Below, one piece after another: positions 31,011 to 50,358 of a stretch of 64,000 nucleotides of DNA. Both the position numbers and the translations under genes were made by a program. The stretch is from Terebella lapidaria (lineage: Eukaryota; Annelida; Polychaeta; Terebellida; Terebellidae): assembly GCA_949152475.1 (NCBI GenBank), contig OX424568.1:16281667-16345666 (forward strand). The letters are read 5' to 3'. The notes under the pieces are model-generated. The model saw only the letters and a program-made list of their open reading frames with translations, made no database searches and was not told the DNA's origin. Position 1 is the stretch's first letter; each line of letters opens with the position of its first letter.

Positions 31011-33064
31011 ATGGCAATGATATCGTGGATGTTCTATGTACTTTGGGACATCTTGTTTGACATCTACATCCTTACCAAGTCGCACGTCACAGTCGGACTT
31101 GCCAGAATCAAACGAAAGTGGAGGCCAAAGAAGATGAAAGACTCTGATGTGAACTTACCTCTACCTCCAGGCAACATGGGTTACCCGATCATAGGAGAAA
31201 CCACAGAGTTTCTCACGAAGGTAAGCTGTGTACTGATATGTGTAGTCTCTGGGACAGATTACAGTTGATCAGCTCCCCTCGCAGACATTCATTTCCAATG
31301 TTTATAGCACTTTAAATACAAAAAGGACAAGTGGAGTTTTAGCCTTTTCTAATATCAAATGTATCAACTACTAATAGCCCCATGAAACCAAAGAGCAACT
31401 CGCTAAAATATTATGGATGCATAGCTTCACTTACGCTGTACATTACAATATTATTACATTCACCCAATGTAAGAAATCATAACAGAAACTCATCAGTGCA
31501 ATCCATCAATATTATCATTCTGTTCATTCAATGTACTCCCAGGGTCTCACTGGGGAATTCTTCCGGGAACGATACTCGAAGTATGGTTCCATCTTCCGCA
31601 CTAACTTCCTCGGCATGAATAACATACACGTCAGTGACTTGTCTCACGTGAAGAAGGTACTCCTAGGCGAGCACCACTTGGTCAAGGTTTTTTGGCCACC
31701 CGCGATGAGAACGCTCTTAGGACGAGGTGCCTTGGCCACCTCGGTCGAAGGACCGCATCGCTGTCTTCGGAGATGCATCAAACAAGCGATGAGCTTCGAA
31801 GCGATGAAGGAGTATGCACCTACGATGATCCGATGTATTTCAGAGGATCTGGAACGTTGGAGTAGCGATGGATTCATCGATATCTACGAGAGAGCCAAGA
31901 GCTTGACGATGAAGACTGCATGTGAAGTTGTCTTCGGGCCAGAGTATATAGAGGACGATGTGATTGAAAGATTATCTGGTGATTTCATCCAGTATGGGAA
32001 TGGGTTCTTCTGCCTGCCATTAATGATCCCAGGGTCTACGTATTATAAGGTTGGTATTCTTCGCGGGACAACCACATAAACACCACTCGAAAATTTCAGA
32101 TTTGGTCATACAAATCTATTTAGTATGATATGATGCGGATCTACTCACTTTCTTCCTCTTATAATATACAATGATCTTTTTTTTTTAAATTACGAATTCC
32201 AGGCTGTTCAAGCAAAGAAACGCATCATGAAGACCCTATTGGATTTAGAGGAGCAAGGCTTGAAACACTCGTCAATTCTGAAATCAATTTTCACAGCACA
32301 CCAGAGAGAAGTCAAAACCTCAACAGAAGAACAAAACAACTTCGCAATAGAAATGCTCTTTGGCGCCCAGGAAACCACAGCATGTACCATCACTTGTGCC
32401 ATGTACCTGTTAGATCGAAATCCAAAAGTTCTTCACGAGTTGAGGACAGAGATTGAAGAACACATAAGGCGTCCAAATTGCCATGGTGACCACATGAATG
32501 GAACAACTAGGCTGACTGTGGACAATCTACATTCTCTGCGATACCTGAACAACGTCGTCATGGAAACGTTAAGGTTGTTTCCACCAATAGGGGGAGGATT
32601 TAGGAAGGTCTTGAAAACCTTCGAACTAGGGGTAAGTACTCCTTCGAATTTGTTCAGCATAAAACACCAGATTCATGTACTTCATTCATACGGTAGAAGT
32701 TGTATCTGACAACCATTTTCCCATTACATATCACCAGGGCTACAAAATCCCCAAGAACTGGACGATAACCTACAGCATCAAGGACCTCCACGAGGGCTCC
32801 GATTTGAATGACGTCAACCACTTCAACCCAAGCCACTGGGACGACAAGGCAGAGAACAACCTCCAATTCTCGCACTTCCTTCCATTCGGGGCAGGTGCCC
32901 GTGTCTGTATTGGGAAAGAGTATGCCAAGCTCTTCATCAAGCTTACCTTAGTTGCTCTCGTCAGTAACTACCACTGGTCGATGGACGGGCAGCAGCCGGT
33001 ATTCACAAGAGTGCCAATCGTCAAACCAGTCGAGCCTCTCATGACGACCTTCAGCAGGAGATGA
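31011..33064 (+). CDS. CYP26: Cytochrome P450 family 26, retinoic-acid hydroxylase
   Basis: Four exons join in phase 0: 31011-31220, 31543-32049, 32203-32631 and 32738-33064, encoding 490 residues. CYP26 enzymes oxidise and inactivate all-trans retinoic acid at the endoplasmic reticulum. Diagnostic words are LPLPPGNMGYPIIGET (residues about 49-64), LLGEHHLVKVFWPP, the I-helix FGAQETTA (about 292-299), the K-helix ETLRLFPP (Glu360, Arg363) and the haem loop FGAGARVCIG with Cys about 439. LLGEH.LV..WP and KTFEL.GY.IPK are CYP26 hallmarks. Exon starts follow AG and donors are GTAAGC, GTTGGT and GTAAGT. An AG just before the start codon (TTTTAATTCAG, 31 kb) suggests an untranslated upstream exon. 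The F-x-P-x-R-F word after the K-helix reads FNPSHW, so the usual Arg is absent. Which CYP26 subfamily it belongs to cannot be told. Confidence 0.96.
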
Positions 33065-35758: not shown

Positions 35759-37493
35759 TCAAACTCGCTCCACCTCAGGAAGATCCATGATCTTGATGAT
35801 TCCCCAATACGAAGATTCCTGGCCGATTTGAACCTGTCCTCGACTGTGAGTACTTTTGATCCAGACCTCATCGTTTGGCGCCAAGGCTGTGGCGCCCCCT
35901 AGGTAACAACTGGAGTGGTCGTTTGGCGAGTGGCCACCAGATGGCGGTACTGACTTGACACAACGAAGGAAGACTGTGGAATTTATCATCACAGAATGGG
36001 CTTGATTCTGAGTCGTGGGATGCTCCACCTGGTTATTATGATAATTACGACTTGTATATTTATACCGAATCAAATCGAACAACTCGATTAAAGTCAATGA
36101 GCTTAATCTGAGCTACTTGAAGATTCATTTTCCAGTGAACGCGCTATTTAATTGAATGAGATCACCATTCGAACTTGGAGAGCAATCAAGGAAAAGTGAA
36201 ATTGGTTGTATTCAACTAGCCTGGCTGTAAATGAAGTAGAGTCCAGATCGTAGTATGATCACGTGACCGGAAGTATGATTGTAGTAAAAGCCAGACATCC
36301 GGTCATACCACGTGGCCGGTCTCCACCATTTATAGGCGCCGTCTGAAGATGGCAAGGTCATTAGACTCATTACAAAATATTTACAATTACAGTAACCAAT
36401 ATCTACACGTGCCAAGATTGTGATCGGTTTCCTATGATTTTCATTCATGAATGTAAATCGGTATATCTGTGGAAAATACCAAAATATATCATTCAGCAGT
36501 TTGTTTACCTTGGCCCAAACCGTACGATCCTGGTGGGAAGCCCTGGAAATGTATGGCCGTGTTTTGACTCTGTAAAACAATGTTTACATGACAAAAATGA
36601 CAACGAAAAAGATGCACCATTCATAAGGAAATATGATCCATGTTGGATAGGATATAACCCGATATGGCCTACATGTACCTGTATGCGATTGAGACTTATA
36701 CGCAACTGGTCAATTTCGCCTGCAATTACAAATCATTATTAATATGGGCACATTCTGGATATTCAAGCCTTTGTATTGCACCATGAGTCCATAACTAGTA
36801 TATGATTGTACCTACCCCTACATGCCCTGTTGCAGCGATGTCGCCTGTTTGTTGTCCCGCCTGGGTTTATGAGCGATGCCGCACGTGTCTGATCGCGTCT
36901 GATCCTGCAGTCGGGACACCTCTCCGTCTCCGACGTCACACCGGACGTGACGTCATCCGATGTCACCTGTGTACCAAAAAACCCAAAGCTGTAAAAAGTG
37001 TAATTGCAATAAATTATACATTCCTCTAATTGCATTTTGGGAATAAACATAAGATATGCTCATTTGAACGCTGATGGCCTACAACACTTTGGGAAACGCG
37101 TAAATTAATGCTTTATCTAAAGGCAGGCGCAAATTGTCTAGCTTCAATTAAGGCCCATACCTGCACGTATTCGATATCGTCTGCTCCGGTTGGTGGACAC
37201 GTGCACATCGCCACATCCTTGGTCACCGTGTCCGGATATCGTTCTTTCCATAACCACTGAAGCGTGACCAATGTGACGGCGGTCGCTGCTAACAATATAG
37301 CAATTAGAGAAACAACAGTCAGGATTTTCAGCCATTTTATGAGGTGCTTCGATTTGCATGTACATTTGTCTCCAGTTTTGTCGTGTTCGTTCCATGCAAC
37401 ATTCTCATCTAGATCGGCAGTTGATCGTTCCTCACAAGAAGCTTGACTCTGCACTCTACGATAGGAGTCTCTGTTTGGTGACAAGGCTTCCAT
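35759..37493 (-). CDS. TNF-superfamily ligand A, type II membrane protein, complete
   Basis: Five exons: 37493-37161, 36966-36812, 36567-36509, 36342-36221 and 36028-35759, giving 312 residues. The cytoplasmic tail (1-54) precedes a membrane segment at about 55-80 (ILTVVSLIAILLAATAV). The extracellular stalk follows, with CPDC, a furin-type RIRR at about 132-135 and a Cys/Arg-rich stretch. The TNF homology domain runs from about residue 167 (NTAIHFQG) through WWRPATWY, SGLYFIYSQ, a Cys pair (LRCVKS, SSCYLGGATAL) and YWGIIKIM. TNF ligands trimerise and engage cysteine-rich receptors at the cell surface or after shedding. The exon 2/3 join uses GGTAG|GTACAA and the second AG of ACAGAG; a near alternative would break frame. 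The exon 4 donor reads CAG|GCTAGT, a GC rather than GT donor. Closest families are probably EDA- or Eiger-like, but this is not settled. It is a paralogue of the ligand B gene 4 kb upstream. Confidence 0.9.
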
Positions 37494-40400: not shown

Positions 40401-41341
40401 AAAACGTAAATGTAAATTTCATTTAAATACAAGCGTTCTAAAACATTTCATATTTGGAAATCAAAATTTATCCATAAGCTCAATAAAACTTATCGCAGCA
40501 GTTTGTGGAGAATAAATATATTCTATTTTTCTAGTACTTTTATTTCTGGATTCTTCTCGTGTCAGTGATATGTGCCAAATTACCAAACATACATATTTTC
40601 GGCATGGGACCTACACCCCCTTTAAGAGATTTTTATATACAAATAGATGGGTCATCTATCAAATGGGGCATATCAGTTTCACTGATAAAATACTTTATAA
40701 ATGTACAGAATACATGTTCACAGATATAATACATGTATGGATATGATTATTACATTACTATCATTACATTACTATTATTATTAAATTTTTACATTAAGGT
40801 TGGAATAAATATTGTATCAATTATAGACAACCCGTTTTACACACGTGCCCGATTTGTTCAATGATTTGATAGAACTCTTCATCATATCTAGATAATAACA
40901 GCATCTCATTTTACCCATTCCAATAGTGTCTCCAAATAAGCGCCCGGTTAACAACCAGCAGGCTCCTGCCGTGAAATAGCGGGCGCCTAAAGGCGCTTAT
41001 TTGGAGGCGAAGGGGCATATAGTATCGAGATTTTTTAATTTTCCTATTCACTTAGCTGATACAATCTATAAGAGGCTGTGTGAAATGGACCTTTCGAGTT
41101 GCACCTGTGCATAACGTAACAGATTTCATATTTTTTTCTGGTACATTGCTGTACAATTCCCGGGGGGGGGGGGGGGTGGGGGTGATCCACTGACATCCAT
41201 TTGAGATGCAGAAAAAAGCAGTATTGTTTGAAAATTGACAGTCCTTGTATTTGGAAAAGAAGTGACGCGCATACAACCGGAAACATTGAATGTTTGTTTT
41301 TTTGTATCCTATTTATCGAACGATAACACCACAGGCTGCCA
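37494..41341. other. Intergenic DNA between the two TNF ligand genes
   Basis: No additional exon was recognised. A small inverted-repeat element lies at 40932-41016. The region should hold the ligand A promoter; no TATA box stands out near 37500. Confidence 0.4.
40932..41016. mobile_element. Short inverted-repeat element
   Basis: CTCCAAATAAGCGCC and GGCGCTTATTTGGAG form a perfect 15-bp inverted repeat around a GC-rich centre (AACCAGCAGGCTCCTG). No coding capacity. Probably a very small MITE or hairpin. Confidence 0.6.
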
Positions 41342-41557
41342 TTATAACCGAAACATTCCAAAGAAGGTAGTCGATGCACGTGCATTAATCGGGTATCTCA
41401 GCTTGTTTGAGACCCGAACAGTTTGATGTTGCTCCAAAAATGCGACGCCGCCCGTCCAGCAACTCTTTCTCGAAGCGCCCGTTGCTAGGCAATAGAACCG
41501 GTTCTCCCCGTCAACTTCTATCAAGAAAGCCGCGTCTTTTTTGGCATTGTACACTAC
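41342..41557 (-). CDS. TNF ligand B, candidate terminal exon 7c (EDA/Eiger-like)
   Basis: After acceptor ATTGCTACAG the frame reads VVYNAKKDAAFLIEVDGE and runs 71 codons to a stop. FYCLATGASRKSCWTGGVAF and ASTTFFGMFRL are close to the C-terminal half of ectodysplasin and Eiger-type ligands (compare C-Y-T-A-G-V and T-T-F-F-G in EDA, from memory). It is shorter than exons 7a and 7b and clearly diverged from them, but starts at the same residue and phase. It has no upstream TNF exons of its own between 41.6 and 43.8 kb. The simplest reading is a third alternative last exon of ligand B. An orphan exon from a lost gene is the alternative. Confidence 0.82.
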   Translation of the reverse strand, partial: VVYNAKKDAAFLIEVDGENRFYCLATGASRKSCWTGGVAFLEQHQTVRVSNKLRYPINARASTTFFGMFRL

Positions 41558-42059
41558 CTGTAGCAATATAATGAAAAATACATTTTATTGGCACTCTCGC
41601 CTAAACGAGACACAACACGACACAACAAACCTGAATGTGGATTTCTCAAGTGACACCAAAAGGGTTTATGTTTCCCCCCGAAATATAGCTATTAGCATGC
41701 ATATGTTGAAGTAGGTGATTGACGGTTTGTGTCAGTTCCTTTTGGAGACCATTCTCTTACAACAGCTTGTAGCTGTTCAATTAGTTATTAAGATGACCCC
41801 CCCCCCCCCCGCGATTAGCAACAGCTATTGAGTAATTCAGTATAAATCAACGTCAGAATAACACTTCAAGCTAACTAAATAAACCTGATGTGACATCCCA
41901 TTGCTAACTAATTAAACCTGATGTGACATCCCAAAAAAATTAGCATCTCGATTATATGGAAAATATGCCAAAACTCCAAACAAACACAACTTCATATTTA
42001 AGTGTCTTGTTCAATATGAATTGTACAGATTGGGCTTCTGTCACAACTTTTGTGTTAAA

Positions 42060-42690
42060 TAGTGTAGAATTGATTTTGGGCAATAACATGAACAAATAAA
42101 TATTTATATCGTTGACTTAAGGCTTTAAATTGTGTAGAATAAATATATTGCTGACAAGACCTCAAATTGTGCAGACTCCAGACAGATAACTAACTATATT
42201 GTCGACAAGACAATATTGTCGACAAGACAATATACCTTAAATTGTATAGAATATAGAACAGATAACTAACTATATCGTTGACAAGATCTTAAATTGTGTA
42301 GAATCTATTTTTTTTACGATAGATAACTTACTATATTGTCGACAAGACCTTAAATGGTATAGAATATATTTTTTACAACAGAGAACCTAACTATATCGTT
42401 GACAAGATCTTAAATCGTGTAGAATCTATTTTTTTACAACAGATAACTAACGACATTGTCGACAAGACCTTAACTTGTATAGAATATATATATTTTTTTA
42501 CAACAGATAACTAACTATATTGCTGACAAGACCTTAAATTGTGCAAAATCTATTTCTTACAACAGATAACTAACTATATTGTCGACAAGACCTTAAATTA
42601 TGTAGAATATATTTTTTCACATCAAATAACTAACTTTATTGTTGACAAGACCTCAAATTGTGTAGAAGCTTTTTTGGACAACAAATAACT
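42060..42690. repeat. About 60-bp tandem repeat, some nine to ten units
   Basis: GACAAGACCTTAAATTGTGTAG-like words recur at about 42154, 42281, 42343, 42401, 42462, 42525, 42586 and 42645, with AACAGATAACTAACTATATTG between them. The array lies between terminal exons 7b and 7c of TNF ligand B. Most units contain TTGTCGACAA or TTGTTGACAA, a short palindrome. Confidence 0.9.
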
Positions 42691-43125
42691 ACCTAAAGTA
42701 CAAAATTAATGCTTATATATTGTACCAGAATCCCACTCAGTTTAACTGACAGAATTGGAAACGGGATATGGATGTGGTTAGTTTTGAGCATATGTTTTGT
42801 TGAACCAACTGTGTGAACAAAATATAATTACTGTGTTATTAATGCAGTTACTGCCTTTCCTTCTTTTTTTTTATTAAATTTTAGCAAAAAGGTTGAAGCC
42901 TAAGTAATTATCCCGGGTAGTAGTTTGAAGTATTTTTTCGAAAAACGGAATAATTTAGATGTTTTTTTCTTGTCTTCGATCGATGTGCGATTAATATATA
43001 TATATATATTAATATATTCCACTGAGTGCCTACATATATATATATTCAACTGAGCGCCTACAATATATATGGTCTAGATGTTAAAGAGGACATTTTCAAC
43101 AAACAGTTTAACATATATATGCAGT

Positions 43126-43131
43126 TTTATT
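43126..43131 (-). terminator. Candidate poly(A) signal after exon 7b
   Basis: AATAAA on the minus strand, about 735 bases beyond the 7b stop codon. It would give a long 3' untranslated region. Not confirmed. Confidence 0.3.
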
Positions 43132-43865
43132 TTGAACACTATACAGATGTATAACGAAGCACAATGCTTTTTTTTCTCACCAAGTTTGTGTGATAACATG
43201 AATAAATGACATTTATACAGCACAAAAATAAATAAGATACACATCTTTGCATGAACATATAAGACTACTACCTGTAACACCGCTTATAAAATGCTATGTG
43301 GCAACTATTTATATTACCGGTATGAACAACTTTCGGAGTGAAATATTGGACAAACAGAATAACTAAATCATAATAACTGAAAACATCATCTAGTGTGAAT
43401 GCCATGTGAATTTGAATATGTGCGGAAATATTCAGTGGTAAACGTAGGAGCCGAAATATTCAGTAAATTTGTTTTGTATTGTTACAAAACAACCACCTGG
43501 ATAATAGAGAAACACTAACAATATTGACGAATTACACCCAATATATAAATGGTATGCACTGGTCATTTGAACCATTCTGTATGTAAACAAATACAATATA
43601 CATGTAATATGAACTTATTGGCTCAACAGACTACTGCGGTAGCTACATACAAAACATTATAGCAACAAGCATAGGATGTCTCAATGAAGTACAACATGGA
43701 TTGTCAGCACTAAAGTATCGAATTGTGCCATACGATAAAGAAACAACCCCTCCCTCGCAAAAAAGAAAACCCTCTCACAAAAACATGCAGTCATCTGTCA
43801 TGTGTGTCGAATGAAGCGAGCTGCCAAATAAATAGACGAACAGAAGTCAACGGACAGCAGCAGTC

Positions 43866-44150
43866 CTACAAGCTTTTTATACCAAAGTATGTGAATCCCG
43901 TTTTTCTTGGGGCGACATGAAGCGAATTGGAGATGGACTCCACTCGTACTGCGTCTCCTGGTCGCAAATACTGCACTGCACTGGCGTGACATGACTTGTA
44001 CTTCGCCGTGTCGATCGGGTTGCCCGATTGGTTGATGTGGTCGACGCCATTTAAACAGGACAATAGCGTGACGCCACGTGGCTCGCTCTGATTGGCTGGA
44101 TCCTTCTTCACGTGGAATCCCATGTGTGCGCGTGTATCGTGGAATGTCAC
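43866..44150 (-). CDS. TNF ligand B, candidate terminal exon 7b
   Basis: After acceptor CCTGTACAG the frame reads VTFHDTRAHMGFHVKK and runs 94 codons to a stop. The opening VTFHDT parallels ITFHET of exon 7a, and NPIDTAKYKSC parallels QPIDAAVYKKC, so the two exons are paralogous duplicates. Other features of the fold are LRPGDAVRVESI and GFTYFGIKSL at the end. There is a Cys pair (LLSCLNG, YKSCHA). Joined to the shared exons it would give 437 residues. A canonical minus-strand AATAAA occurs at 43126-43131. Confidence 0.88.
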   Translation of the reverse strand: MTFHDTRAHMGFHVKKDPANQSEPRGVTLLSCLNGVDHINQSGNPIDTAKYKSCHASAVQYLRPGDAVRVESISNSLHVAPRKTGFTYFGIKSL

Positions 44151-44713
44151 CTGTACAGGACGAATATCAAAACAAAGATGCACATTCAGTTCAATTAATT
44201 TCAATTTAGATATGTTATCTTTGAAGCGAGAAAGCCGGTGAATCATGGATAACTCATCTTTGTTTTGATATGTCCCTAATGTACACATATTTCTCACGAA
44301 TACTTGTTTAGACATTTACAATGTTGAAAATGACAATGTATGTACCTGTTTCTATACAAACTCATTGTTTAAATATGTCATGGATAATAATTTGTAATGG
44401 ACAGTTAAATATTAACAGCAACAACTTTGTACAATCAAATATCGATAATATTATGTACAGTACGCAAGCATTAGGGCATGTCTGTAATCAACAACACATC
44501 AGTGTTAATAAATAGTCAGCTAATTTGTTCAACATATCTTCTGTTACATCATTCACTGAGGACAACTCATAACATCAGAATCACAAAGTTTGAACACGTT
44601 CGCACCAGAAAGACCCGGATAAATAGACCTGAAGGTAAAAAAACCTCTAGAATAAATATCAGTCCGTGGTAAGATCGTATCCTCAACAACAACAATAACA
44701 ACAACTTCTCCAC

Positions 44714-44989
44714 TTAGTTGCCAAGTAGCACTAGTCCCCAAAATGTGCGTCTTGGATCTGTAGCAATATGCCGCCCTCGATATCTGACATATATCGTGAT
44801 GACGTCATCAGTCTCAAGCCTGATGACTCGCGTGACGTCACATTTCTTGTAAACGGCGGCGTCTATTGGTTGCGCATCAGCCACTTTGTCAATGGTAGCG
44901 TCGCAACCGACGATAGCAGTTGGGCCTTCACCCGGGCTGATGCGGAGAACATTAAATTCCAGAGGGGACGTAGTCTCGTGGAACGTGAT
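44714..44989 (-). CDS. TNF ligand B, candidate terminal exon 7a
   Basis: After acceptor TTTTTAG the frame reads ITFHETTSPLEFNVLRIS and continues 91 codons to TAA. It supplies the C-terminal half of a TNF homology domain: a Cys pair (VGCDAT and YKKCDV), DDVITIYVRY in the position of the strand before the last turn, and FWGLVLLG at the end. It begins at the same residue (the V/I after YAQ) and in the same phase 0 as the other two terminal exons. Joined to the shared exons it would give 434 residues. No canonical poly(A) signal was seen between it and exon 7b, so it may share a 3' end further on. Confidence 0.82.
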   Translation of the reverse strand: MTFHETTSPLEFNVLRISPGEGPTAIVGCDATIDKVADAQPIDAAVYKKCDVTRVIRLETDDVITIYVRYRGRHIATDPRRTFWGLVLLGN

Positions 44990-45221
44990 CTAAAAATTGG
45001 GGAGAAATCAAATATGGCGGTCGTTTTTCAGTATCATGTGATCACATATACCTCGACAAATGCATTATTTGACTTATTATTTCCTTATCTGCAGTTGTTT
45101 ATTTTGGGTCTGGCCTTGTGGTTTCCTTCGTACCAAAAATGAATTAAATATTGAGGGGAAAACCCCTTTTCAGTCAAAGGGAAAACGAAAATGAAAGCAC
45201 ATCCGGACAAAGAATAACAAC

Positions 45222-45290
45222 ACAACGACAGGTAAACTGTCAAACAACTGGTTCAAAAATAGGCGATGAACAAATCCCAGGACCGCCAAT
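45222..45290 (+). pseudogene. Homeodomain helix-3 fragment, broken
   Basis: On the plus strand, 45243-45266 encodes NNWFKNRR, the core of a homeodomain recognition helix (W-F-x-N-R-R). Just upstream, in another frame, is TQRQV, as expected before it (TQRQV-NNWFKNRR). The two are separated by an extra 8 bases, TGTCAAAC, apparently a small duplication of the AAAC context. A stop follows soon after. This looks like a decayed fragment of a homeobox gene, perhaps SIX- or TALE-like, lying antisense in the intron between exons 6 and 7a of TNF ligand B. The match is short, so chance is not excluded. Confidence 0.35.
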
Positions 45291-46082
45291 ATAGCTAAAG
45301 AACCTTTCTCGAAAGAAGGAACATTTGGAATCTTCAACCCTCGCACGTGGATATCGAGTACGCCATGTTGGATAGAAAATACCACAAGGAGAACCACAGA
45401 ACCGAGTGTATTGGAGTACCTGACGTCCATCAATTCGACCGGAAGGTAACGATAATGACAGAACAATGTCGAGACAACGAACAACCGCATGAAAGAAATA
45501 ACAGGTGCACTAAAGTTTTTTGTTGTTGTATTATTCTCAGATCAGGAGAGTTTGCTTCTCAAATCAGTTGTCTTTTGTTATTTCGTATTTTTAATATGTC
45601 TGTAATCTGTTTATTGTTTGTCAATATACATTTCATTGTTATATTATATGTTTTTTTAGTTGTGTTTTGGGTTTTCACCTGTTTTATGAATTTTCAATTT
45701 ATTTTCAGTTTAACGGAATATTTGCTATTATTGTGGGTTTATTATTTTTGTTAAGATACATTTTTTTTTTATGATCTTCATATATTATGATTTGTTCGCC
45801 GATTTTCATTAATTGTTTTTCAACTTCTTTCATTTTGTGTCATTGGTTTCATCTCGATTTGAATGATATATTTATCACTGTTTGTTGATTGCCCGTATTC
45901 ACAGAAGAATATGTAATACATCCTTTATATTTTGTGTGCAGCTTACAAGCATGCAATATCTTAGATTGATAAAACATTATTTAATTTACTATCTTAAAAC
46001 TATCATAAGTAGCATTCAAAATAATAATTTATACTCAGTATCGCTTACTCTAATAACAATGTAATTGATAACGGTTACATAC

Positions 46083-47086
46083 CTGGGCGTATATGAAGTA
46101 AAGTCCTGCGACCTTGACCCTAACCTCTCTGATTTCTCCGTCCAGATTTCCGGGAATGACGTCATAAGTTTCGTTCATCTTGGGGTTCAAGGTGGCATTC
46201 CTTGCCCACTCTGGAATTCTCCAAAACTCCAAAGTCTCATCTGCAAAATTCAGAATCAAATTGTATATACTAGTATATTCAAAGTTTATCTGTGAAAGTT
46301 CCGAAGGTTTTCTCTCAGATTATAAATTATAAGTGATATAAATCATCAGTGATTGCTATTTTTCTAGTTTTTGAGAAAAATGTCGCATACTTTGCGGTAA
46401 ATAGCCTTGATAATAGAGTTTGCCATGGAGCATGTCTCGAAAAAGGCTCGAATTATCCTTGTACTGTGTTTGTTCTGAAAAGACAATCAACATTTTGAAG
46501 ATTAATTGAATGTATTGTATTTCATAGTCATTATATTTCCAGATATGACAACAAATTATTAATTATCAATCATAGGCGGATATGCTGTGCCCAAAATAAC
46601 GTATGAAAGCGCTACCAATAAGCTACAAAATTAATTTGATAGTATGCACTGAAATTTCTTAGGACAATTGTCACTTCTCGGTTCATTTACGATCATAGAA
46701 CTCTTAAGAAAATCGGTTTTACCGAGTGGGGTCATCTCGATATTCCCCTCGAGGTGTATAGCGCTGTGTGACGAGGTTTTGCTGATTTCATCCTGTGAAT
46801 GAAAAACAACACTTGCTACATGTAATGGACCTTTATACACGCGCATCGCTGAATAAGAGAAGCTCTCAGCAATATTAACGAAGGTTTGTAGTGAGTGAAA
46901 CAGATTAATTATATATGATGAACTGCTGAACGTAGATTCACTAACCTGAACTAAACTTTTCAAGCCATCTGAATTTAAAATAAGAGAAAAAAAAATACTG
47001 TTTAGAAAACATAGGATAAACATTCGTTAGATATACTATTACACACCGATTCTTTTTTTATTTCATCCTCATCTCATTTTATTGTC

Positions 47087-47156
<70 letters not shown>

Positions 47157-50100
47157 TCAAAACGTTTGGTAACTTTCTACAAATCATGACTATCAATACA
47201 GTGCAGACTTTAGTGGAGAAAAAACCCAGTAAAACTCACGTAAACATTCCTCTTTTCCAGTCAGTTTCGCGTTTTTTTTACGGCCATCGTATTTAAACTC
47301 GCATTTATTGTTGCTCCTTCGCTTCTTTCCGCCGCGGTTTCCTCTATTCCGACCCCCTCCGTTCCCCTTATTTCCACCCCTTTGGTGTCGCTGACCTCGG
47401 CCGGAGGCCTCGCGGCGCCCTCGTATCAGCGTCTCTTCAAGGTCATCATCGTCTTCAAGGTCATCGTAGTCATCTTCAGGATCCTGGATGTTAAATGTTT
47501 TAATTTCGTTCAATACAAATCATGTTCGAAATTATATCATTATAAGCAACAGGCATTGTGCAAATATGTTGGGTGGTATTAGCAGCGTTTTTAGGCCTTT
47601 GCATTGCAATATAAGATGTAGTGAATAGTCTGAACTAGACTCATACTATGGCGCCCCGTTCGTGCCACAAAAAAGAGAGTTTATTTTTTTTCTAACTCAT
47701 ACGTATGAGATAGTATCTCATACGTATGAGATAATAAGTCATACGTATGAGATAATAAGTCATACGTATGAGATACTAAGTCATACGTAGGAGATACTAA
47801 CACATACGTATGACTTATTAACACATACGTATGACTTACTAACACATACGTATGAGATTATAAATCATACGTATGAGATTATAAATCATACGTATGAGAT
47901 AACATGTCATACGTATGAGATACTAACACATACGTATGAGATACTTATCTTATACGTATGAGATATTTCTTTATAAGTAGATAGATATGTGAAATTGTCA
48001 TGGAGAGCGTAAAAGAAGCAAGAAGGTTACATGGAAAACACGGAGGACACACATATTACTTCTATTTCCATGGCGGTGTCGGGTATATAGAAAGTTTAGT
48101 ATCTCCTACGTATGTGTTAGTATTCCATACGTATGACATGTTATCTCATACGTATGAGTTAGAAAAAAAAATTAACTTCTCTTTTTTTGTGGCACGAACG
48201 GGGCGCCATACTCATCCATCTATGCGCATGTTGCTAATAATTTGAAGCTATAATTTTTTCGAAACGTTATGATAAACGAGAAATTGCCCGCGAGAAACGA
48301 AAGTAAACCAAACGCTATGACGTTGGCTCAAAGCCAGTAGCCCATGCTGTGCACGTCCTTAAAACTGTTTAGAATATATGGCGCAGTCAATAGAGGGTGT
48401 CTTCATACATTTTTGTCACTTGTACAACAAGATTTCCGACTTCCGTGCGGGTAACGAAAATTTATGACTTTAAGTTTTGGCTTCAATAAATTTGATTGAT
48501 TGATTGATTGATCCACATCACCAAGTAGTATTCACGGTGACAAGTTTTTAATCGCACGTGATCATTGGGAAGTATCGATTTATTTTACTTAACTAGCCTA
48601 CCTAGCCACTTTAGCGATATCTCTCTCTCTATCTGTCAGTATCTGTATAGAAGGGTGTAGTTTATTTTGGACCGGTTTCAGGCACTCCAGGTCAGCCAAT
48701 ATTTTTTTTTATTCTTATCTGATTCAGGTCAATCAATATATAAACAACAACAAAGGGCTCAGTGTTCAATAATTTATGGGATACTTCCGCGAGATATGAT
48801 ATTGTAACCGAGATTACATTACAGAGTCGAGTTCGGATACCTCTCTCAAACGATTGTTTGCAAATATCGAAGTGTAAAATCTGTAAAAAAAATTCCGAGT
48901 CTGTTTGAACGGCATGTATCAAGTCCGTCATTTAGGCCTATATTGAAGAGGCAAATTATTTACAAAAACAAAGTGAATAACAGTTAATGTTCTGGTTTCG
49001 TGCATTTGGCTTTTCCATTTGGGGATTTTCATGAAGTACATCATGCTCAGAATTTGTGCTTATACCGAATTAAAATATTGTAGGCATACAATATTTGTAG
49101 GTCACTATTATTATTATAAAAGCTGTCTGACCGCATGTGGTATAGGCATAAAACCACATAAGTGGAAGATAATCGCTCTGTACCAATACTGTTCAGTTAG
49201 AAATTGACACGTTGTATTTGTTAGGGAAAAACGAAACCGCAGTTTCTGTTGTTAATGGTTTTTCACTCAAAACATGAAAGGTCGAGAATCAATACTACTA
49301 CCGGACATTTATGTTTGTATTCGCCAGTCTGAAAATAAGTAGGCTACGCGGACAGATCTATCATACATTCGTAAAAATAAACCAAAATATGCTCCTATGA
49401 TACCATTTTGATGAATAGCTTACACGTGTAGCTATGCACTGTTATAAATCATGTATAGGAGGTATATATTGTTATTCAAAATTGCTAGGCATAGGCCTTC
49501 TCTATATAGGTCAAGTTATTCATGTTTTTAATTTAGTTCCTGTTGAAGAAATGGCCTCATATGGCGCTCTCTGTATACTTTTAAAAGTATGGCAAAAAAA
49601 AATAAATATATGTAATACCCGGTATATCAATTCCTAATTCTCGGGACAAAATATCTAGAAGCTCACCTTATTGAAAATATATTATTGGATTTATTGACAT
49701 AGGACATAACATAGATGTAAACCAACCCATATCTATTTTAGTTCTCGGATCACAATAGAAAATTAATTTTTCTTGTTTCATTCGATGGTGTTAATCGTAT
49801 GAATGATACATTTACAAATTCATATTTCTATAAAATGTAAGTACGCATACACATTTCGAGATCAACACACCGTCTATATGCTCTCCCCTATATTAGCCCT
49901 CAACTCACCCCATTGCCTCCGAGCAGCCAGGGATCTCCCGAGCTTGTCTCGTACAGCTCGTAGTCGCTTTCATCTTCAACGGTCCCGTCATTCGTGTTTT
50001 CCACGTCGATGTCCCAAATTACTTCTTCCTGGTCGTGTCCCTCGCGCTGATTTCCATGCGCGTTCGCATGTGCTGAATTTGAATTCTTCGCGCGCTCCGC

Positions 50101-50358
50101 CGCGTGGTAACCACGGTGACAGTTCTTTTGAAGCTCATCGACGGCATCAGTGAGGACCCGGATTTTCCAGAGAGCCAATCCTGAGATAGCTAATGAAATG
50201 GCCACAGTCAGAGAGAGAAAACATATTGCGCAATAGAGCTTCCATGTTCGACTTTGGACTTTTGTTCTCGATTTCCTGAGTCTTTTGGTTTCGTTAGCCG
50301 TCGAAACCAAGACGACGTCGTCTCCAACGTGGACCGAGGTGTCCTTTGGGGAATGCAT
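46083..50358 (-). CDS. TNF-superfamily ligand B, shared exons 1-6
   Basis: Exons 50358-49909, 47483-47240, 46968-46946, 46792-46723, 46474-46391 and 46240-46083 join with matching phases to give 343 residues. Domains: cytoplasmic tail 1-40; membrane segment 41-64 (LYCAICFLSLTVAISLAISG); stalk; an acidic run at 151-167 (DPEDDYDDLEDDDDLEE); a furin-type RGRR at 171-174; and a Gly/Arg/Lys-rich patch to about 210. The TNF homology domain starts at about residue 250 (SAIHLEGN) and continues through LYYQGYLPQ, FWRIPEWARNAT and AGLYFIYAQ, where exon 6 ends in phase 0 at CAG|GTATGT. Exon 3 is only 23 bases; without it the frame runs into a stop. The C-terminal half of the domain must come from one of three downstream exons, 44989-44714, 44150-43866 or 41557-41342. 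The first intron contains a 564-bp transposon. Overall plan and intron phases match ligand A. Confidence 0.9.
47088..47154. repeat. (ATA)n microsatellite
   Basis: About 22 uninterrupted AAT-type units in ligand B intron 2, just downstream of exon 2. Confidence 0.97.
47647..48210. mobile_element. Non-autonomous DNA transposon with palindromic 21-bp repeats
   Basis: The outer ends are TATGGCGCCCCGTTCGTGCC continuing through CACAAAAAAGAGA, mirrored at 48170-48210. Inverted repeats extend over about 70 bases at each end. Inside (47697-47965 and again 48100-48165) the palindrome CATACGTATG recurs about every 21 bases, more than a dozen times, separated by words such as AGATAATAAGT or ACTAACA. A unique middle of about 130 bases remains. 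No transposase is encoded. It lies in the first intron of TNF ligand B. Target duplication is unclear. Confidence 0.85.
48440..48515 (+). mobile_element. Retroposon 3' tail
   Basis: TTTTGGCTTCAATAAATTTGATTGATTGATTGATTGATC has the look of the 3' end of a SINE or LINE, with a short tandem TGAT tail. The body upstream (from about 48230) has no recognised head or coding sequence, so the class is uncertain. Confidence 0.45.

Follow-up and report, generated by a model that had tools for sequence, protein, structure and literature searches.

Ligands of the TNF superfamily are usually viewed as one gene for one ligand, a well-known exception being EDA, in which two residues are alternatively spliced. 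Here we describe gene A, a putative TNF ligand gene on the minus strand of a 64,000-nucleotide stretch of the genome of the annelid Terebella lapidaria (C15:16281667-16345666; hereafter, the window). Gene A probably combines one set of six upstream exons with three alternative last exons (7a, 7b and 7c), each of which would supply the second half of the TNF homology domain (THD). Similar to gene A, vertebrate EDA is a TNF ligand with splice forms that differ at this very junction; EDA alters two residues, whereas gene A would swap whole half-domains comprising strands D to H. EDA also carries a collagen-like Gly-X-Y stalk, whereas no Gly-X-Y run exceeds three in what exons 1-6 of gene A encode; gene A is not filed here as an EDA orthologue because its predicted stalk does not appear collagen-like. 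APRIL and BAFF (TNFSF13 and TNFSF13B), which are separate genes in vertebrates, resemble gene A in type II topology, a furin-like site and a cysteine pair, and we know of no comparable alternative half-domains in either of them.

Outside the TNF superfamily, alternative exons for the second half of a binding domain are already known from FGFR (IIIb/IIIc) and neuregulin-1 (alpha/beta), where they alter the match between ligand and receptor. These cases involve immunoglobulin and EGF-like domains and internal exons, whereas gene A would use terminal exons of a TNF ligand, and it is the TNF ligand setting that would be new. In arthropods, by contrast, Eiger is described as the only TNF member. 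The original prediction regarded a TNF ligand choosing among half-domains as undescribed, and we likewise found no precedent among the open-licence papers listed, which is not proof of absence. The available part of a paper on tunicate TNF ligands (PMC12843592) contains 0 occurrences of "splic" or "isoform", and PMC8055015 does not mention EDA.

Gene A and its candidate terminal exons

The exons of gene A were re-spliced in silico from the minus strand of the window, and genome searches covered the 761.6-Mb genome. All introns among exons 1-6 have GT-AG ends, and the resulting 343-aa open frame ends with VAGLYFIYAQ in phase 0, which reproduces the six shared exons ending after GLYFIYAQ that had been predicted. 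The shared protein looks as expected for a type II TNF ligand, its topology and furin-like site being recognized at the motif level only (Table 1), and the strand assignment in exon 4 follows what we take to be the family pattern. The shared THD exons by themselves matched no Pfam family.

Each of the three terminal exons has a preceding AG acceptor, a phase-0 entry, two cysteines and its own stop codon, again in agreement with the prediction. The cysteines are spaced by 20 residues in 7a, 21 in 7b and 9 in 7c, and in all three the pair may bridge strands E and F, as in the EDA/APRIL/BAFF-like subgroup. When joined to the shared exons, the composites with 7a, 7b and 7c scored 35.3, 51.9 and 32.6 bits against the Pfam TNF profile (cut-off 23), with alignments running from profile position 22 to positions 124-127 of 127. 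We also sought each terminal exon with a hidden Markov model (HMM) made from the five remaining ones recognized in the neighbourhood, among 3398 open reading frames (ORFs) of 128 kb. These leave-one-out searches recovered 7a at E 8.5e-6, 7b at E 2.8e-11 and 7c at E 3.5e-4, well beyond the best non-TNF ORFs (E 0.34, 1.2 and 0.2, respectively), which argues that the terminal exons are more than chance resemblances. The GC content of the exons is 0.51 (7a), 0.52 (7b) and 0.48 (7c), with 0.33, 0.33 and 0.32 in the intervals preceding them and 0.36 past 7c.

The scanned neighbourhood comprises 128,334 bases and ORFs of at least 25 aa, so that shorter exons would escape. It holds four N-terminal half-domains (genes A, B, C and D) and six recognized terminal exons, all on the same strand: three belong to gene A by position, and genes B, C and D have one each behind the same phase-0 junction. 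Because gene B only follows after 7c on this strand, it cannot use that exon, and since B, C and D own one terminal exon each, gene A is the nearest possible partner of 7a, 7b and 7c. Separate upstream exons belonging to 7a or 7c, which would have refuted the prediction, were sought in this neighbourhood and not found. The predicted arrangement of one ligand gene with three endings thereby stands as far as a single upstream exon set and three intact terminal exons are concerned. It is likely that at least two of 7a, 7b and 7c are spliced. If all three junctions are used in vivo and each half-domain folds with the shared half, receptor specificity could change with the choice of ending.

In such a scheme, exons 1-6 would supply the membrane anchor, the stalk with its furin-like site and the THD into strand C, and splicing of exon 6 to 7a, 7b or 7c would complete strand C and add strands D to H. 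The swapped part would comprise the CD, DE, EF and GH loops together with part of the trimer core. The result would be three ligands with a common anchor and release mechanism and distinct receptor-facing surfaces.

Table 1. Features of gene A, its candidate terminal exons and neighbouring elements (positions within the window)
Feature	Position	Strand	Description and evidence
Gene A exon 1	49909..50358	-	Start codon, cytoplasmic part, predicted transmembrane helix (aa 43-63), acidic stalk; splice sites and hydropathy
Gene A exon 2	47240..47483	-	Stalk, furin-like RGRR (aa 171), basic stretch; splice sites and motif
Gene A exon 3	46946..46968	-	23 nt; AG/GT sites, frame kept
Gene A exon 4	46723..46792	-	Start of THD, SAIHLEGN; re-splicing
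Gene A exon 5	46391..46474	-	Re-splicing
Gene A exon 6	46083..46240	-	THD as far as strand C, with GLYFIYAQ; donor CAG|gtatgt in phase 0
Terminal exon 7a	44714..44989	-	91 aa and stop; aligns with the end of strand C and with D-H; APRIL-like match in the PDB
Terminal exon 7b	43866..44150	-	94 aa and stop; aligns with the end of strand C and with D-H; APRIL-like match in the PDB
Terminal exon 7c	41342..41557	-	71 aa and stop; aligns with the end of strand C and with D-H; EDA/Eiger-like match in the PDB
Inverted-repeat 5' arm	44255..44275	-	Pairs with 7b polypyrimidine tract
Inverted-repeat 3' arm	44158..44180	-	Covers 7b polypyrimidine tract
AATAAA	43126..43131	-	Likely polyadenylation (polyA) signal of 7b, also serving 7a through read-through; motif only
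ATTAAA	41034..41039	-	Possible polyA signal for 7c; motif only; AATAAA at 40544 and weaker variants also present
Gene B, start codon to N-terminal half-domain	36221..37493	-	Ends FIYSQ; tandem paralogue
Gene B sole recognized terminal exon	35759..36028	-	Same phase-0 junction

Amino acid identity among the terminal exons is 26% between 7a and 7b, 22% between 7a and 7c and 31% between 7b and 7c, and comparison with the terminal exons of genes C and D gives 28% and 27% for 7a and 33% and 32% for 7b. The description of 7a and 7b as clear duplicates was therefore overstated, since they are no closer to each other than to the C and D exons, and at the nucleotide level they show no significant similarity (best E 0.37). 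A common motif, PID.A.YK.C, and the long cysteine spacing are only suggestive of a duplication. A tree of ten half-domains has long branches and no supported ones, and in this unsupported tree the approximately unbiased test gave p values of 0.409 for a 7a+7b+7c clade, 0.417 for 7a+7b and 0.183 for 7c+EDA.

Each of the four composite searches against the PDB returned the fusion chain 4zch in the top row, followed by APRIL as the best match for the 7a and 7b composites and by EDA and then Eiger for the 7c composite; the Drosophila-type Eiger (6zt0) was matched by the composites of 7b and 7c. The single exons gave weak matches with the same trend: APRIL at E 1.2 for 7b, 4zch (E 0.5) and then APRIL (E 0.76) for 7a, and 4zch (E 0.0013) and then EDA (E 0.029) for 7c. 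The EDA/Eiger-like character ascribed to 7c thus agrees with the PDB searches, whereas the half-domain tree offers no supported branch for it.

Repetitive DNA was observed within the gene. Intron 1 contains, at window positions 47647-48230, a satellite of the palindromic unit CATACGTATG with a period of about 21 nt and, on either side, inverted copies of a GGCGCCCCGTTCGTGCCACAAAAAA end, in the manner of a mobile-element-like array. A 60-nt minisatellite of 7.3 copies occupies positions 42257-42695, between 7b and 7c.

The putative choice junction in comparison with EDA

According to the available part of PMC9918506, EDA-A1 and EDA-A2 bind different receptors and differ by Val307-Glu308, which reshapes the surface that chooses EDAR. 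In the alignment to solved EDA structures, EDA-A1 reads FIYSQ-VE-VYY and EDA-A2 reads FIYSQ-VYY, and the VE residues fall at the gene A junction. The parallel with EDA-A1/A2, originally drawn as an example of a small splice change that switches receptor, is hence stronger than had been claimed. Tyr310 and Tyr311 are counted to strand C in the same available text, which places the junction inside this strand. A cattle EDA variant, c.924+2, is located in the 5' splice site of intron 8 (available part of PMC5015951); since 924/3 = 308, this would be a phase-0 intron after Glu308, provided that the human numbering also holds for cattle. The putative choice intron of gene A and the intron of the EDA receptor choice appear to be one and the same. 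If gene A does exchange half of its binding domain, this would tie the EDA-A1/A2 switch to an older intron.

Candidate polyadenylation signals and a predicted hairpin at the 7b acceptor

The ending of gene A would probably be chosen by competition between acceptors and polyA sites, for which candidate signals are listed in Table 1; 7a would share the polyA site of 7b. The inverted repeat in front of 7b folds into a predicted hairpin whose stability (-50.8 kcal/mol, z -4.26) was reached by 0 of 200 shuffles; this stretch was selected for folding after the inverted repeat had been noticed. The last 25 intron bases before 7b have an accessibility of 0.13, below all 120 of the 120 sampled intronic AGs and below the eight other acceptors tested. 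The hairpin may lower the use of 7b and, as long as it stays closed, would then shift the choice towards 7a or 7c. The 134-nt hairpin element has one match in the genome, although missing matches do not prove rarity. Its interpretation as an abundant mobile element is unsupported, given this one genome match and no second copy in 128 kb.

Alternative readings and the surrounding cluster

Several observations weigh against gene A being a single gene with three alternative last exons under such control. On its own, 7a gave no match in a Pfam search. Codon usage, scored with a model for which 1137 codons from gene A and its neighbours served as training set, gives good support to 7b, moderate support to 7a and weak support to 7c: the score of 7b was reached by 1 of 3000 random windows and 22 of 2000 shuffles, that of 7a by 19 and 181 and that of 7c by 129 and 898, respectively, and one antisense frame of 7a outscores its coding frame. 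Splice-joined retrocopies of the exon 6-7b or 6-7c junctions, which would have demonstrated isoforms, were not seen in the genome. None of the eight polyA hexamers sought occurs between the stop codon of 7a and the acceptor of 7b, so that transcripts ending in 7a would read through 7b as 3' untranslated region. The acceptor of the constitutive exon 3 is also rather closed (accessibility 0.20 and 0.32 in two contexts), and a closed acceptor is therefore not necessarily a sign of regulation. Finally, of the 12 main-interface contacts of EDA named in the available part of PMC9918506, 7 lie before the junction and 5 after it (Ser275 and Arg276, an additional crystal contact, and Phe314 were excluded from this count).

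The contact count bears on the earlier statement that the C-terminal half of the domain supplies much of the receptor contact, which holds only partly for EDA-EDAR. The five contacts after the junction are the patch described as disturbed in EDA-A2 in the same available text. The statement fits better with a docking model of moth Eiger, in which the receptor sits mainly on the CD loop, the GH loop and the D strand (available part of PMC6684607), all of these surfaces being downstream of the junction.

Among the alternatives, the one that survives best is that gene A uses no more than two of its three candidate endings, the others, most likely 7c, being recently orphaned remains of tandem genes that lost their 5' exons. 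The cluster is indeed a tandem array of at least four genes, the coding statistics of 7c are weak, 7c lies 2.3 kb past 7b and beyond AT-rich minisatellite DNA, and the uneven divergence of genes C and D (see below) implies that different parts of such genes may not share one history. However, the acceptor, frame, cysteine pair and terminal strand are all intact in 7c. Calculated on the exon's own codons, free drift would have given 3.0 stops at 0.3 substitutions per site and 1.0 at 0.1, so that with 7c still free of stops only a recent orphaning would fit. Moreover, no remnant of an N-terminal half was detected near 7a, 7b or 7c by HMM among the scanned ORFs, the N-half search listing no ORF between exon 6 and the N-half of gene B at E up to 5. 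Taken together, we consider orphaned remains unlikely.

It is very improbable that 7a, 7b or 7c form short genes of their own, driven by promoters of their own and including unrecognized upstream exons. Open frames do exist between exon 6 and 7a (45541-45170 on the minus strand and 45299-45754 on the plus strand), and exons coding for fewer than 25 aa would escape the N-half search; yet neither frame has a Pfam match at E up to 0.1, no hit of the N-half HMM falls in the gaps, and each terminal exon begins mid-domain, which means that an upstream N-half is needed. Splicing noise or an assembly error such as collapsed haplotypes is the least credible explanation, as the 22-31% identity among the three exons is too low for alleles, a 7c query finds a single 7c-like place in the genome, and all three exons lie on one 34.3-Mb contig.

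We thus favour the reading in which gene A encodes a TNF-superfamily ligand and can end in any of three alternative last exons. A fuller version of it is possible but tentative: one gene would give three ligands, two APRIL-like and one EDA/Eiger-like, by swapping half of the jelly roll behind a common promoter, anchor and shedding site, with the choice made in part by the RNA hairpin that closes 7b, and EDA-A1/A2 would represent a small version of the same switch at the same ancestral intron. If true, receptor specificity would have been diversified without gene duplication, and the three forms would be natural chimaeras that could tell which half of the TNF domain sets trimerisation and which sets receptor choice.

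Within the cluster, the N-terminal half-domains of genes A, C and D were found with the gene A query, and that of gene B was recognized by eye. The gene B N-half alone gives a weak Pfam match (E 0.017), which rises to 42.8 bits once it is joined to its terminal exon. The HMMs of the N-half and of the terminal exon were built from the recognized sequences and hence test only for additional copies; in the 128 kb they revealed no further half-domains, the next ORFs having E 0.84 (N-half; part of gene D) and 1.3 (terminal exon). Genes C and D are located upstream of gene A on the same strand, near C15:16347317-16349407 and C15:16356912-16364340, respectively, with exon 1 of gene D assigned by similarity to gene C. 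Between C and D, synonymous divergence (dS) is 0.068 for the exon-6 equivalents and 0.566 for the terminal exons (nonsynonymous divergence, dN, 0.199), and identity in 60-column windows is 68-83% across the terminal exon and 78-91% across the 3' flank. This uneven divergence suggests that gene conversion has acted or that the two halves have had different histories.

Other observations concern gene B and more distant loci. The gene B intron at window position 36220 (minus strand) has an apparent GC donor, gctagt, of weak consensus. Another TNF ligand was identified at C9:25181636-25182055, where Pfam positions 2-126 of 127 are covered by one open frame and the junction intron is absent. Contig C438 (15,973 bases) of this genome is a mitochondrial genome. 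Its frames stay open under genetic code tables 5, 9, 4 and 13, but conserved Lys and Met positions of COX1 are consistent with table 5, and the 12 longest frames share one strand; these features suggest an annelid-like lophotrochozoan. Finally, the plus strand of the window carries a cytochrome P450 gene at positions 31483-33064, with the Pfam p450 family matched in two searched pieces, which we take to be CYP26-like.

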